Assembly (NCBI GenBank): GCA_019075925.1
Contig: JAGXAC010000003.1
Location: 1 to 47,985, forward strand
Length of the DNA: 47,985 nt
Source of the DNA: Hyphomicrobiales bacterium
Lineage (GTDB): Bacteria; Pseudomonadota; Alphaproteobacteria; Rhizobiales; Xanthobacteraceae
Reading direction: 5' to 3'
The translations under genes were made by a program, and so were the position numbers. The notes under the pieces are model-generated. The model ran no database searches and had not been told where the DNA came from. It saw nothing but the letters and a program-made list of their open reading frames with translations. Shown in pieces: positions 1,384 to 26,365 of this stretch (its first letter is position 1; every line of letters begins with the position of its first letter).

Positions 1384-2006
1384 ACTTACTTAGGTCCAAA
1401 GGCGTGGATGCCCGCGACAAGCGCACGGACGCAACCGCATTTTCTATGGTCCCCTTTTCCTTGACTTTCGTCCCTAATTCAGTTACGATGTAAGAATCTC
1501 GCTCAGTGAGGGGCGTGGCCTCGAGACACACCTGGACACGGAGCGAGTGCGGTTCCTGCGGGCGGGGTTTGTCACCCCGCTCCCGGGCGGTCCGGGCATC
1601 GTCCCCTCCGGCAGCATGACCGGGGCGCGGGGTGCTCCGCTTAAGCGCGAATGACGGCGCGGGTAACGCCTGCGTGTCTCTTTTCCGTTCGCGTGAAGCG
1701 CGGCCTGGGCTGAGTTCTGGCGTTCGCTCGCCGGGGCAAGCGCCGCCGTGGGGCGCCGGAAGGCGAGCGATCCCCGCCCGGATCGCTGCCGTGCCTTCGC
1801 GGAATGAGTGGCGCAAACTGCGTACACTCGTTGGCGTGAAGCACGGCCATGGCTGGATGCGTCTTTCGGCGCTCCACCCCCTCCTCGCGGAGGCTGCTTC
1901 GTTTTCCGTTTAGTGAGCAAAGCTCGGACGCTGACGCGCCGCGAGAACGAGTCTCTGCGCTTACCTCTCCCCGCACGCGGGGAGAAGGAGCACGGACGCG
2001 CAAACG
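1384..2006. other. Long intergenic stretch without a convincing gene
   Basis: About 620 bp carry several short overlapping open frames on both strands, none with a ribosome site, a recognisable domain or normal composition. The translations are Arg/Ala/Ser-rich low-information strings typical of GC-rich non-coding DNA. A perfect hairpin (CTCCCCGC 1967-1974, GCGGGGAG 1977-1984) near the right end belongs to the CTCTCCCCGC..GGGGAGA repeat type common in alphaproteobacteria. I infer decayed or repetitive DNA. Confidence 0.5.
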
Positions 2007-2062
2007 CTTGATGCTTTGAGTCTCTTGATGTTTCGAGCCCCTTGATGCTCTGAGCCTTGATC
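2007..2062. repeat. Tandem 17-bp repeat, about three copies
   Basis: The units start at 2007, 2024 and 2041 and read CTTGATGCTTTGAGTCT, CTTGATGTTTCGAGCCC and CTTGATGCTCTGAGC. A partial fourth copy, CTTGAT, begins at 2056. The first two are exactly 17 bp and the third is shortened to 15 bp. The array lies 75 bp upstream of the small conserved gene at 2138. Confidence 0.75.
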
Positions 2063-2137
2063 CCGGCGATTTGTTTGCCGAAAATTATCCTTGCAGATTT
2101 ATTCCCGGAAACTTTCAGCGACACCAGCGAGCACGCC

Positions 2138-2287
2138 ATGATCCGCAAATTGTCGTCCGGCAAATACCGGCTCTATTCGCGCAAGAAAAACCCAAAGACC
2201 GGGCGCCGGCGCAATCTCGGCACCTTCGGCTCGCGCGCCGCCGCCGAGAAGCATGAGAAGGCGGTGCAGTATTTCAAGCGGCATTGA
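2138..2287 (+). CDS. Conserved small basic protein (49 aa)
   Basis: The ATG at 2138 begins MIRKLSSGKYRLYSRK, followed by NPKTGRRRNLGTF and a C-terminal RAAAEKHEKAVQYFKRH helix. I recognise this as a small conserved hypothetical protein of Rhizobiales. Its pattern of Lys/Arg-rich beta strands followed by a helix resembles the N-terminal arm-type DNA-binding module of tyrosine recombinases, so nucleic-acid binding is plausible but unproven. An upstream in-frame ATG at 2057 would add 27 residues of unconvincing sequence that run through the end of the tandem repeat. The ribosome site before 2138 is weak. Confidence 0.7.
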   Translation: MIRKLSSGKYRLYSRKKNPKTGRRRNLGTFGSRAAAEKHEKAVQYFKRH

Positions 2288-2616
2288 CCTTTGCCGTCTC
2301 CCTGATCTTTGCCGGCACCCTGAGGAGCGAGCCATTAGCGTTTACGCGCGTCTTCGACACGCTATCGCGAGCCTCGAAGGGCGACACCGGCATCCTTCGA
2401 GGGCCGCTTCGCGGCCACCTCAGGATGACGCCTCGTAGAATGTAGAATGACGGCAAAGAAGGCGAGCGGCCATCGATATCGCCATATTTACTGCGCGGTT
2501 CTGCCGCGCATTCACCATGTCGTCGCATCCGCGCGTAGACGCTCTTGATTGAACCAATCGGCCGCGAGACACTTCTTATAAAGGGCGATCGGTTGCCGAC
2601 CCATCGGGTGATTCAC
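2288..2616. other. Intergenic region holding a palindromic repeat
   Basis: The 329 bp between the 49-aa gene and the L,D-transpeptidase contain no gene. Positions 2315-2430 are a dispersed repeat, listed separately. The remaining 186 bp up to the ATG at 2617 are presumably the transpeptidase promoter region. I see no clear -35/-10 pair there. Confidence 0.5.
2315..2430. repeat. Dispersed palindromic element (CACCCTGAG..CTCAGGATGACG), intergenic copy
   Basis: The element opens with CACCCTGAGGAGCGAGCC and closes with ACCTCAGGATGACG. It contains GCGTTTACGCGCG internally. The same ends and the same internal 13-mer occur in the copy inside prmA (4115-4213). This is a repeat family I associate with Bradyrhizobium-like genomes; it probably folds into a long imperfect hairpin. 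Confidence 0.7.
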
Positions 2617-3459
2617 ATGCGGTTTGGTTTTGCGCTTCGGGCCTCGCTGCTGGCCGGTTCGCTGGCGCTGCCACTGGCGTCGGCGGCACGGGCCGAGATC
2701 GACGTCAATATCGACAAGACGACGCAGCGGATGACGGTCTCGGTCGACGGCACACAGCGCTACGAGTGGCCGGTCTCCACCGGCCGCGCCGGTTACGACA
2801 CGCCGAACGGCACCTTCAAGATCAACCGCATGGACGCCGACCATCTGTCGCAGGAATGGGACAACGCGCCGATGCCGCATGCCATGTTCTTCGACATGCA
2901 CGGCCATGCCATTCACGGCTTCTTCGACGTGAAGCATCTTGGCCAGCCGGTCTCGCACGGCTGCGTGCGGATCGCGCCCGATCACGCGGCGCTGCTATTC
3001 AAGCTGGTGAAGGCGGAAGGCATGCAGGAGACGAAAGTCACCGTCAGCGGCGAGGCGCCGCGCACCATGTATGCCGCACGGCGCGCGCCGGCCTATGCCG
3101 CCGGCGGCAACCCGATGCAGATCGTCCCACCCGGCTACGATCGGCGACTGCAAGCGCAGCAACAGCAATGGCAGGCGCAACAGCAGCAAATGCAGCAACA
3201 GGCGCTGCAGCAGCAAATGCAGCAGCAGGCGCAGATGCAACAGTGGCAACAGCAGCAGCAGCCGGATTCCTGGCATCAGCTGCCGCCGCAGCCGCCACCC
3301 TATGGCCAGCAACAGGCCTATGACTCGCAGGGCCGGCCCTATTACGGTCAGGCGCAGCAATATTACGGCCAGGTGCAGCAGCCGTATTATCAGCCGCAGT
3401 CCTATTACGGCCGGCCGGTCTATGTGGTGCCGCAATATTACGTGGCGCAGCCAAATTAA
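2617..3459 (+). CDS. L,D-transpeptidase (YkuD) with a Gln/Tyr-rich tail
   Basis: This is a secreted L,D-transpeptidase, a class that makes 3-3 cross-links in peptidoglycan or attaches proteins to it. From the ATG at 2617 (280 aa) there is a signal peptide at residues 1-26 with a likely AxA cleavage at ARA. The YkuD domain spans about 27-150 with HGHAIHG (95-101) and the catalytic motif SHGCVR (113-118, nucleophile Cys116). After residue 180 comes a low-complexity Gln-rich segment (up to four Gln in a row, interspersed with Met, Ala and Trp), then a Pro/Tyr/Gln-rich end with repeated YYGQ/YYGR units. The tail is not part of the enzyme fold and may contact the wall or mediate protein binding. 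An upstream ATG at 2545 would put 24 residues before the signal peptide and is rejected. Confidence 0.9.
   Translation: MRFGFALRASLLAGSLALPLASAARAEIDVNIDKTTQRMTVSVDGTQRYEWPVSTGRAGYDTPNGTFKINRMDADHLSQEWDNAPMPHAMFFDMHGHAIHGFFDVKHLGQPVSHGCVRIAPDHAALLFKLVKAEGMQETKVTVSGEAPRTMYAARRAPAYAAGGNPMQIVPPGYDRRLQAQQQQWQAQQQQMQQQALQQQMQQQAQMQQWQQQQQPDSWHQLPPQPPPYGQQQAYDSQGRPYYGQAQQYYGQVQQPYYQPQSYYGRPVYVVPQYYVAQPN
3150..3270 (+). repeat. CAG/CAA-rich low-complexity coding stretch
   Basis: Within the L,D-transpeptidase gene, CAG and CAA codons interrupted by ATG, GCG and TGG encode a Gln-rich segment. The near-repetitive DNA could slip during replication and change tail length. Confidence 0.7.
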
Positions 3460-3616
3460 TATTGACGCGCTCGCGCCGGCTTGTGGGTAAAGCCGGGATA
3501 AACCTGTGGGTCGTATCGGGATATTTCTGGCATAAGCTGCCGCCGCCGCGGCAAGCACCGTGCGACGCAGCGCGCGGATAATTGCGTGAATCGATCTGAC
3601 AAGCCCAAGCAAGATA

Positions 3617-4657
3617 ATGACTTCAGCGACCGGCCGGCAACGCGGCTCCGTCGTTGTCGGGCAGTTCACAACCACCGAACAAGCGGCGCACCGGGCGATG
3701 GAGCGCCTCGCCGAGCATTTTGCCGGCGACGATGTGGGAATCGGCCTGATCGACACCGGCAATGGACGCTGGCAGGTGGCGCTTTATTTCTCCGTCCCGC
3801 CGGAGCGAAAGGCGGTGGCGGCTGCGGTAGCGGCGGCGGCCGGAGCGAAAGCTGCGGCGGCATTGCGCTTCGCCCGCATCGCGGCGATCGATTGGGCCCG
3901 CGCCAGCCTCGCCGGCCTGGCGCCGGTCGCAGCCGGACGGTTCGTCATTCACGGTGCGCACGACCGCGCCCGCGTGCCGCCGAACCGGATCGGCATCGAG
4001 ATCGAGGCCGCGCTTGCCTTCGGCACCGGCCATCACGGCACCACGCGCGGCTGTCTCCTCGCGCTCGACCGCCTCTGCAAATTATTGGACAAACCAAAGC
4101 CTGCAAATCTTGACCGTCACCCTGAGCCGCGCGCCACGCGCGCGTTTACGCGCGCCGTCGCAACCGAGTTCACGCAGGCTGTGCCTGCAACGGGCGCGCA
4201 CCTCAGGATGACGAAAATGCGCATCCTCGATCTCGGCACCGGCTCTGGCGTGCTCGCCATTGCCGCGGCCCGCGCGCTGCATGCCCGGGTGCTGGCGACC
4301 GACATCGACCGCGAGGCGGTGCGGGTCGCGCGCGGCAACGTCCGGCACAACCGCGCCGGCGCGATGGTGGAGGTGGCGCGCGCGGCCGGCGTCACTGCTG
4401 CACGCCTGCGCGCCGGCGCGCGCTTCGACCTGATTTTCGCCAACATCCTGCTCGGGCCGCTCTTGTGTCTGGCCACGCCTCTGCGACGGCTCGCCGCTCC
4501 CGGCGCCCGCGTCGTGCTGTCCGGCCTCCTCGCCGCGCAGGCCAATGCGATCATCGCCGCTTACCGTCCGCTGGTGCTTGAGCGGCGGATCACGCTCGAC
4601 GGCTGGAGCACGCTCGTTTTCAGGCGTCACACGCGCCACGCACCCGCCGACGATTGA
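3617..4657 (+). CDS. prmA: Ribosomal protein L11 methyltransferase PrmA with an in-frame repeat insertion
   Basis: PrmA trimethylates ribosomal protein L11 using S-adenosylmethionine. The N-terminal substrate-recognition domain covers about residues 1-110. The family marker AFGTGHHGTTRG is at 134-145, SAM motif I ILDLGTGSG at 203-211, and the NILLGPL motif (usually NILANPL) near 276. The protein has 346 residues against roughly 290-310 for relatives. The excess is residues 167-199, encoded by exactly 99 bp (4115-4213) that are a copy of the dispersed palindromic element also at 2315-2430. It falls between the helix after GTGHH and motif I, which should be a tolerant surface loop. The ATG at 3617 has only a weak ribosome site. 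Confidence 0.9.
   Translation: MTSATGRQRGSVVVGQFTTTEQAAHRAMERLAEHFAGDDVGIGLIDTGNGRWQVALYFSVPPERKAVAAAVAAAAGAKAAAALRFARIAAIDWARASLAGLAPVAAGRFVIHGAHDRARVPPNRIGIEIEAALAFGTGHHGTTRGCLLALDRLCKLLDKPKPANLDRHPEPRATRAFTRAVATEFTQAVPATGAHLRMTKMRILDLGTGSGVLAIAAARALHARVLATDIDREAVRVARGNVRHNRAGAMVEVARAAGVTAARLRAGARFDLIFANILLGPLLCLATPLRRLAAPGARVVLSGLLAAQANAIIAAYRPLVLERRITLDGWSTLVFRRHTRHAPADD
4115..4213. repeat. Palindromic element inserted in frame inside prmA
   Basis: Terminal arms CGTCACCCTGAG (4115-4126) and CTCAGGATGACG (4202-4213) are inverted repeats with one mismatch position. The 99-bp length is a multiple of three, starts and ends on codon boundaries and has no stop in the prmA frame. It shares GCGTTTACGCGCG and both ends with 2315-2430. 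It resembles in concept the Rickettsia palindromic elements, which are also found inside genes. Confidence 0.8.
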
Positions 4658-4675
4658 GCCGGCTATTTATTGTTT

Positions 4676-4724
4676 GGGCATGATCTTTTCCGAAAACCGG
4701 TTTCCACTTTTCGAGATCATGCCC
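4676..4724. repeat. Inverted repeat GGGCATGATCT..AGATCATGCCC
   Basis: Perfect 11-bp arms at 4676-4686 and 4714-4724 flank TTTCCGAAAACCGGTTTCCACTTTTCG-like sequence. The GCATGATC..CGAAAACCGG..GATCATGC unit is a widespread dispersed repeat of Rhizobiales. It fills the gap between prmA and the aminopeptidase gene and ends 13 bp before that gene's ATG, so it lies in its leader. Confidence 0.7.
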
Positions 4725-4737
4725 TAAATTCGCGCGC

Positions 4738-6573
4738 ATGTTCGAAGCCCATTTCCAATCGTTCGAGGATCGTGCCGGCCGCGGCGATACCTCAGCGCGG
4801 GTGGCGGCGTTGCGGGCCGAGCTCACCCGGCGCGGCCTCGACGGCTTTATCGTGCCGCGCGCCGACCGCTTCCAGAACGAATACGTGCCGCCCGCCGCCG
4901 AACGGCTGGCCTGGCTCACCGGCTTCACCGGTTCGGCCGGACTGGCGATCGTGCTGGCGGACCGCGCCGTCCTGTTCGTCGACGGCCGCTACCAGGTGCA
5001 GGTGCGCGACGAAGTCGACGGCGCCATCTTCGCCATCGCGCATCTGGTCGACGATCCGCCGCCGGTCTGGATCGAGGCCAATCTGCCGGCCGGCGCCAAG
5101 CTCGGCTATTCGCCCTGGCTGCATACGGTGGACGGGGCCGAGCGGCTCGCCAAGGCATGTGCGGCCGCGCAGGCGGCGCTGGTGCCCGTGGACGACAACC
5201 CGGTCGATGCGATCTGGAGCGATCGTCCGGCGCCGCCGCTCGGCGCGGTGGTGGCGCACGAGCTTCGCTATGCCGGCGAAGATACCGCCGGGAAGCTCGC
5301 GCGCGTCCGCGCCGAGCTGCAAAAAACCTCGGCCGACACGCTGTTGGTCACCGACCCGCAAGCGGTCTCGTGGCTGTTCAACATCCGCGGCAACGATGTT
5401 CCGCATACGCCGGTGGTGCTGGCCTTCGCGACGGTGCCGAAAGAGGGCCGCCCGACGCTGTTTGTCGATTTGCGCAAGCTCGGCAACGAAATCCGTTCCA
5501 GCCTGGAGGAGTTCGCCGACATTCGCCCGAACGCCGCCTTCGAGCGCGATCTGGTTGCGTTGGGCGAGGCACACCGCACGGCGCGGCTCGATCCGGGCAG
5601 TTGTCCGGAAGCGATCGCCCGGCTGATTGCCGACAGCGGCGGAACGATCGTGCGCGGCGCCGATCCGATTGCGCCGTTGAAGGCCGTAAAGAATGCGGTC
5701 GAGATCGCCGGCGCCCGCGCCGCGCAGCTGCGCGACGGTGCGGCGGTGACACGCTTTCTCGCCTGGTTTGACGTGCATGCGCCGCGCGGCGAGCTGACCG
5801 AAATCGACGCGGTCGAGGCAATCGAAAGCTTTCGCCGCGACAGCGGCCTGCTCAAGGACGTTTCATTCCCGACCATCGCCGGCGCCGGTCCGAATGGCGC
5901 CATCGTGCATTATCGCGTCACGCGCAACAGCAATCGCCGGATCGTGCCCGGCGACCTGTTTCTTCTCGACTCAGGCGGTCAATACGAGGACGGCACCACC
6001 GACATCACGCGTACCGTCGCGGTCGGCAATCCGACCCCCGACATGCGCCGCAATTTCACGCTCGTGCTCAAGGGACACATCGCGGTGGCGCGCGCGATCT
6101 TTCCGGAAGGCACCACCGGCGCGCAGCTCGACACGCTGGCGCGGCAGTTCCTGTGGCGGGCGGGACTCGATTTCGACCACGGTACCGGCCACGGCGTCGG
6201 CAGCTATCTGTCGGTGCACGAAGGCCCCGCGCGCATTTCCAAGCTCGGCAGCGCGGTGCTCCAACGCGGCATGATCCTCTCCAACGAGCCCGGCTATTAC
6301 CGCACCGGCGCGTACGGCATCCGCATCGAGAATCTGATTCTGGTCGGCGAAGTGCCGGCCCCGCTCGACGCTGAAAAGCCGCTCAACGCCTTCGAGACGC
6401 TGACGCTGGCGCCGATCGACCAGCGGCTGATCGAGCCCGACTTGCTGACGGACGACGAGACCGACTGGATCAACGGCTATCACGCGCGCGTGCGCGATTC
6501 GCTCACGCCGCTGCTGGACGTGCCGACCCGAGCGTGGCTCGGCGCAGCAACGCTGACGCTCAAACCGCTTTAA
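4738..6573 (+). CDS. Xaa-Pro aminopeptidase (aminopeptidase P, M24B)
   Basis: This cytoplasmic metallopeptidase removes an N-terminal residue that precedes proline. At 611 aa it is the long, three-domain (eukaryote-like APP1) type: a creatinase-N domain at about 20-150, a second creatinase-like domain to about 320, the M24 catalytic domain at about 325-550, and a C-terminal extension. Metal ligands are visible: the two Asp in LLDSGGQYEDGTTDITRT, the His in HGTGHGVGSYLSVHEG, and the Glu residues in ILSNEPGYY and IRIENL. The gene follows prmA by 80 bp that are mostly a dispersed repeat, so co-transcription is uncertain. Confidence 0.92.
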   Translation: MFEAHFQSFEDRAGRGDTSARVAALRAELTRRGLDGFIVPRADRFQNEYVPPAAERLAWLTGFTGSAGLAIVLADRAVLFVDGRYQVQVRDEVDGAIFAIAHLVDDPPPVWIEANLPAGAKLGYSPWLHTVDGAERLAKACAAAQAALVPVDDNPVDAIWSDRPAPPLGAVVAHELRYAGEDTAGKLARVRAELQKTSADTLLVTDPQAVSWLFNIRGNDVPHTPVVLAFATVPKEGRPTLFVDLRKLGNEIRSSLEEFADIRPNAAFERDLVALGEAHRTARLDPGSCPEAIARLIADSGGTIVRGADPIAPLKAVKNAVEIAGARAAQLRDGAAVTRFLAWFDVHAPRGELTEIDAVEAIESFRRDSGLLKDVSFPTIAGAGPNGAIVHYRVTRNSNRRIVPGDLFLLDSGGQYEDGTTDITRTVAVGNPTPDMRRNFTLVLKGHIAVARAIFPEGTTGAQLDTLARQFLWRAGLDFDHGTGHGVGSYLSVHEGPARISKLGSAVLQRGMILSNEPGYYRTGAYGIRIENLILVGEVPAPLDAEKPLNAFETLTLAPIDQRLIEPDLLTDDETDWINGYHARVRDSLTPLLDVPTRAWLGAATLTLKPL

Positions 6574-26255: not shown

Positions 26256-26365
26256 TTCCCCTCCCCCTTGTGGGGAGGGGTTTTGGGTGGGGGCGGGGGC
26301 CGGCGGCGCGGAGAGAGAGGACAAGCCCCCTCCCCGTCTCTCCCCCACAAGGGGGAAGGGAGCCG
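26256..26365. repeat. Dispersed double-hairpin repeat between mraY and murD
   Basis: Two hairpins bound the element: CCCCTCCCC/GGGGAGGGG (26258-26266, 26272-26280) and TCCCCC/GGGGGA (26341-26346, 26351-26356), joined by a purine-rich GGGTGGGGGCGGGG segment. A similar element lies between pntAA and pntAB at 39105-39200. It sits in the leader of murD inside the operon. Confidence 0.7.

Follow-up and report, generated by a model that had tools for sequence, protein, structure and literature searches.

In-frame palindromic repeats, by arm sequence of unrelated superfamilies, at a single loop of the methyltransferase PrmA

Introduction

Palindromic repeats that lie in frame within genes are known, in the accessible portions of the literature mostly as single scattered cases, and the classic case is that of the Rickettsia palindromic elements (RPE), palindromes of ~100–150 bp that occur in frame in genes of conserved proteins, with one RPE-decorated protein, a guanylate kinase, reported to be active (PMC2229807 and PMC3733652, as available in part). 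A 2013 report (PMC3733652) found copies of CGTC- and GTAG-tagged REPs within genes of several species. Its accessible text suggests that loop insertions may be neutral and states that repair genes are among the REP targets, that loops other than the usual one are allowed in the Bradyrhizobium CGTC-1 repeat, and that different REPs occupy about the same recB site in two Xanthomonas species. Bradyrhizobium and Rhodopseudomonas contain numerous copies of the palindromes Br-REP1 and Br-REP2, which in the available part of their description are reported as intergenic (PMC5082802).

Here, we describe a palindromic element that lies in frame in prmA, the gene for the ribosomal protein L11 methyltransferase, and inserts of the same and of other kinds at the same loop in relatives. 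The mode is that of the RPE (available parts of PMC2229807 and PMC3733652), as intergenic copies exist alongside in-frame copies in prmA and in an imuB-like gene, but here several unrelated repeat families use one landing site. With Br-REP1 and Br-REP2, the element shares its abundance and probably a related host, whereas by eye their printed consensus is unlike the arms described here, and they are placed in intergenic regions (PMC5082802, available part). Since intragenic REPs and RPE are already published, the single insert in our window is a known kind of thing, and the view of the first-pass annotation of this DNA, that gene-internal copies are not recognised for such repeats, is superseded by the CGTC and GTAG cases of 2013 (PMC3733652, accessible text). 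That unrelated families use one and the same loop repeatedly, and in several genera, is beyond the published reports that we found; in that accessible text, multiple REPs at a single site are mentioned only for recB in the two Xanthomonas species, and a search of literature drawn mostly from outside subscription journals returned no report of palindromic repeats at this prmA site.

Results

The window, that is, the whole stretch of 47,985 nucleotides that was analysed, is contig C229 of a 3.55-Mb genome (G000; 282 contigs, 88% complete). Positions 3617–4657 of its plus strand encode PrmA (346 residues; PF06325, E = 5.9e-47), and this open reading frame is the sole prmA match in the genome at E up to 1e-20. 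The gene is interrupted yet in frame, as the best stretch of model NF001784 covers residues 17–155 and the other PrmA models fall within residues 194–338. Between the GTGHH helix and SAM motif I lies a CGTC-tagged palindromic element of 99 bp (4115–4213, plus strand), referred to as class A in the following and recognised by its arms, its fold, its copies in the genome, and its absence in the relative G003. Its ends are near-complementary, with the left outer arm CGTCACCCTGAGC at 4115–4127 on the plus strand and the right outer arm at 4201–4213 on the minus strand (CCTCAGGATGACG when written on the plus strand), and the segment with two further bases per side folds with −58.5 kcal/mol (z = −5.1 against 200 shuffles). 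A codon of the reading frame starts at 4115, and the 99 bp correspond to 33 stop-free codons (RHPEPRA...HLRMT) that leave prmA intact. The first-pass annotation of a dispersed, codon-aligned, and stop-free palindromic repeat within the prmA frame is thus upheld by arms, fold, and genome copies; its figure of 33 added residues holds for the element itself, whereas the loop is 37 residues longer than that of G003 (52 versus 15).

A further copy of this class lies between genes at 2313–2430 (no strand assigned), evidenced by paired arm matches and by a blastn match to the left half. This copy had been noted at 2315–2430, and only its start had to be corrected, as the arm begins at 2313. Both copies contain the 13-mer GCGTTTACGCGCG as an exact match (2338–2350 and 4142–4154), as had also been noted; allowing two mismatches, the 13-mer was found 7 times with 8.8 matches expected, which is not above chance, and the 13-mer alone is therefore little proof. 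A scan of window positions 1800–4800 with Rfam gave no known RNA family at the prmA site.

In the AlphaFold2 model of the insert-bearing PrmA (mean pLDDT 83.6, pTM 0.72), the blocks of the insert region (residues 161–200) are coil with a pLDDT of 40–61, located between a helix (140–158) and a strand (202–206). Blocks 91–100 and 131–140 are also weak (58 and 50), the latter containing the GTGHH motif, and together with the pTM they make the model less certain than its mean pLDDT implies. Solved PrmA structures were the top Foldseek matches, their query TM-scores being only ~0.5. On this model, the insert is best read as a disordered loop of PrmA.

Throughout G000, the arm pattern CGTCAYCCTGAGG is matched 72 times at up to one mismatch, compared with 2 matches of the reversed control, in agreement with a terminal CGTC tag. 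The matches form 47 loci, namely 25 outward-tagged (CGTC) pairs and 22 single arms, and some of the single arms are chance matches within ordinary genes. By eye, a CCTCGAAGGATG...CATCCTTCGAGG core can be made out in many of the ~100-bp pairs, which form nested palindromes, while the prmA copy has the outer arms without this core, and folds of the 25 paired elements have long outer stems and nested hairpins. Several traits are shared with the CGTC REPs as they are described in the accessible text of PMC3733652: the terminal CGTC, the paired arrangement, the abundance in alphaproteobacteria, the mostly intergenic position with some in-frame gene-internal copies, and repair genes among the targets. 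In that text, most units form head-to-head dimers; here, the pairs at 25 of the 47 loci are tagged outward, and the ‘head’ end of that text may differ from the outward end. The CGTC REPs are further characterised there by an unpaired tail of 3 bp, mostly CCA, and by the lack of an associated transposase gene. Unlike those REPs, which have a stem of 8–9 bp and a loop of 4–5 bp, the element has longer arms and a nested interior (same text). The short stem–loop unit was not seen when the folds of the 25 paired elements were inspected by eye, and we therefore do not file the element as a member of the CGTC REP superfamily.

A repeat that codes by design was rejected, since among the paired elements lengths that are multiples of three are not in excess (9 of 25, with the two other remainders accounting for 7 and 9) and since mononucleotide shuffles contain more open frames than the elements do (2.8 versus 2.2 of six per element). 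The frame in use is the most hydrophilic open frame in only 8 of the 13 testable cases. Reading frames that continue through the element with at least 20 codons on either side number 39 and occur at 26 of 46 loci, with the 47th locus being at a contig end and outside this count, and with single arms given an assumed span of 103 bp. The Pfam scan covered 20 of these 39 frames besides prmA; 18 were left aside, including those on C161 and C238, which by eye are chance arm matches in ordinary genes. In a CoA transferase and an AMP-binding reading frame, the element sits before the Pfam domain and is therefore probably outside the gene, and a PAS_4 match that overlaps the single-arm locus L224 was below the family cut-off and was set aside. 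Two clear gene-internal copies were thus found among the frames scanned, one in prmA and one in an imuB-like gene, and G000 may contain more.

The prmA gene was matched in 18 of the 20 genomes of the same genus (g1) and in 376 of 391 genomes of the family, many genomes being fragmentary assemblies; among the matches listed, at least 16 inspected genomes carry repeat-type in-frame inserts at the prmA loop: 8 of the 18 in the same genus, and at least 8 in other genera. Reading of peptides and DNA gave four classes. Class A is found in G000, G018, G010, and G015, and class B (PCKGEGRGGG...PTRLA.ARRPPPFRGR) in G005, G014, and G009, with a shorter insert in G016 that looks like half a class B copy. 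Class C (IPPLKGEG...RGRDKK or close) is present in six genomes of genus g58 (G283, G332, G338, G314, G334, and G232) and in one of genus g62 (G132), and class D in one of genus g44 (G062). Hairpins of the CCTCCCC...GGGGAGG type are common to classes B, C, and D, which may represent one superfamily, and class A is unrelated to these by its arm sequence; judged in this way, two or more unrelated repeat superfamilies are represented among the inserts. A hairpin pair of the CCTCCCC...GGGGAGG superfamily also exists in the window at 26258–26363 (no strand assigned; pattern match at 26260–26278, ends by reading). Class B was considered as a likely source in G000 and rejected, since this genome has only 7 B-type palindromes.

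The loops of 14 other carriers fold with −64 to −127 kcal/mol, and the short copy of G016 with −29 kcal/mol. In g58, where prmA was matched in 41 of 43 genomes, 30 loci were inspected, and the two motifs are 62–83 residues apart in six of them, 35 in one that was assigned to no class, and 20 in the other 23, with 20 being the commonest spacing seen in the family. Four genomes (G119, G184, G080, and G079) have a spacing of 38–42 residues without any recognised repeat, and length alone is therefore no proof of an insert. The comparison of PrmA from relatives, which had been proposed in the first-pass annotation, showed that the insert is absent from G003 and from nine other genes of the same genus. 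That annotation had named two outcomes as speaking against it, namely relatives whose sequence there is unrelated but equally long, and an alignment in which the segment is ordinary PrmA sequence. Unrelated sequence of similar length was indeed found, but it is itself a palindromic repeat, and this widens the finding and does not refute it; the alignment says otherwise than ordinary PrmA sequence, as the insert is missing in relatives.

A PrmA tree was calculated from 77 sequences with the loop left out of the alignment, and its support is moderate, with 27 of 73 inner branches being weak. G003 is the nearest sampled relative and is joined to G000 with an SH-aLRT of 99. The insert class changes at least 13 times on this tree when gain and loss are weighted alike; such counts cannot separate gain from loss, and an old insert with subsequent losses and replacements is possible for some cases. 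One clade unites the class A carriers G018, G010, and G015 with the class B carrier G009 and the insert-free G002. The loop has 11 residues in all 8 named tree rows, which is also usual in the inspected family rows, and 17 of the 23 tree rows of g58 have exactly 11 residues beside six carriers. Among the 10 genes of the same genus without recognised insert, one has a loop of 24 residues and 8 have loops of 13–16 residues (L037–L040, L043, L044, L046, and L052). It is possible that these loops of 13–16 residues are scars of lost inserts.

The rest of the gene and its neighbours served as controls. With rare inserts defined as columns that are filled in less than 15% of the rows, none of the 69 family rows has a rare insert of at least 8 residues elsewhere in the aligned prmA core (loop removed), and three named rows have 8-residue rare inserts elsewhere in PrmA. 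For the downstream peptidase gene, the 12 other full-length copies in the same genus deviate from the matched query length by no more than 3 residues, and for ligA, none of the 9 other full-length copies is more than 2 residues longer, while some are shorter by as many as 11. Partial matches were excluded, as were two peptidase matches with an identity of just 43%. Both PrmA motifs are in one frame in all 18 genes of the same genus and in all 30 inspected genes of g58. The frame is not preserved in every genome, since in the prmA of G183 (genus g8, L165) the loop is longer, with no palindrome by eye, and a frameshift precedes motif I, which reflects either a sequencing error or a broken gene. 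At the residues of GTGHH and SAM motif I, 38 aligned sequences do not vary at all, including 13 from insert carriers. In the domains on either side of the loop, our own script gave dN/dS values of 0.18–0.42 for 9 pairs that include an insert-bearing gene and of 0.07–0.45 for 4 pairs that do not. As far as sequence comparison can tell, the constraint on the rest of PrmA looks unchanged by the insert.

The second gene-internal copy in G000 (L203:1037–2707, minus strand, contig C85) is in a gene with the Pfam domains IMS and DUF6504, an architecture that we take to be imuB-like. The class A element makes up residues 369–402, between the two domains, and this was the only one of the 20 scanned reading frames besides prmA with domains on both sides of the element. 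The gene was matched in 18 of the 20 genomes of the same genus and read in 17. By reading of peptides, the first linker contains class A in G000, a degenerate version in G017, and the repeat-like peptide SHPSPASGGGS.WG in G004 and G006, and the second linker contains repeat-like peptides in G005, G014, G017, and G019. The imuB-like gene seems to follow the same pattern as prmA.

The abundance of repeats was compared in 35 hand-chosen genomes with statistics that ignore kinship. Class A carriers have 10.7–43.8 arm copies per Mb, compared with 1.6–24.5 in 14 other genomes of the same genus (p = 0.004), and B-type palindromes are more abundant in the 12 carriers of classes B, C, or D than in 23 other genomes (p = 0.003; p = 0.14 within g1 alone). 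The abundance in carriers fits a role of supply.

Discussion

We consider it probable (about 80%) that tolerated in-frame insertions of non-autonomous repeats in a permissive PrmA loop explain the recurrence of inserts at this site. A dispersed, non-autonomous, CGTC-tagged palindromic repeat would have been inserted into prmA by trans-acting machinery, most simply after the split from G003, and it would have stayed with the frame kept and in a loop that tolerates extra residues. The insert is presumably translated, its effect is likely near-neutral, and the events probably took place in this order. More generally, palindromic repeats would insert widely, with the gene-internal survivors being those in frame in tolerant loops, and in this family, repeats from two or more unrelated superfamilies would have entered the same loop on several occasions. 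Unrelated superfamilies at one loop point to tolerance of the site and abundance of repeats, not to the target choice of one mobile element. The first-pass annotation had called the element domesticated, which would imply a gained function and says more than the data, as the evidence fits toleration.

Other explanations have to be weighed against this. It is hardly credible that the segment is an ordinary PrmA loop that is by chance long and palindromic in this lineage, without any insertion. The loop length does vary unaided, as seen in the four genomes with a spacing of 38–42 residues, but dozens of other G000 loci contain matches to the arms, the loops of other carriers fold strongly as well, and the commonest spacing in the family is only 20 residues. 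PrmA is dispensable in E. coli, and prmA might accordingly be decaying, with inserts accumulating in a gene of no further importance; this is very improbable in view of the invariant motifs, which include those of 13 carriers, of dN/dS values that lie clearly below 1 and differ little between pairs with an insert and pairs without, and of the lack of rare inserts elsewhere in prmA.

A single old ancestral insertion, followed by repeated loss and by replacement through exchange among repeat copies, would agree with the 13–16 or 24 residues—instead of 11—of insert-free loops in the same genus, as if these were remnants, and with the clade in which three class A genes are accompanied by a class B gene and an insert-free one. 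We nevertheless regard such a history as rather unlikely, as by reading there is no arm sequence common to classes A and B, which makes homologous exchange between them unlikely, and as in g58 the majority of tree rows have exactly 11 residues beside the six carriers. Retention for an effect on the mRNA, where a strong hairpin would slow down translation, prevent decay, or adjust the downstream gene and the added residues would be a by-product, is improbable, too: the folds are very stable, and RNA roles have been proposed for REPs (PMC3733652, accessible text), but the frame is kept in all genes inspected in two genera, many relatives have no insert at the site, and unrelated palindromes occupy the same place.

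Tolerated insertion thus remains our preferred reading, and a wider version of it, to which we would give slightly less than even odds, is that the PrmA loop before motif I and the linkers of the imuB-like protein are standing landing sites, where repeats keep arriving, are replaced, and feed lineage-specific disordered loops. If true, repeat DNA would continually supply otherwise conserved enzymes with new disordered loops that are specific to a lineage. With unrelated repeats at one site, close relatives with and without insert, and neighbouring genes as controls, the prmA locus amounts to a natural replicate experiment, with which one can address the question of whether repeats in loops are only tolerated or contribute to protein evolution, and the effect of an insert is measurable on an enzyme with a simple assay, the methylation of L11.

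Two further features of the window flank prmA. An L,D-transpeptidase (YkuD) encoded at 2605–3459 has a long glutamine-rich stretch with runs of the QQQMQQQ type, and shortly 3′ of prmA, at 4677–4723, there is a further inverted repeat, GGCATGATCTTTTCCGAAAACCGG ... CGAGATCATGCC, which is present as one copy within the window at up to 3 mismatches.
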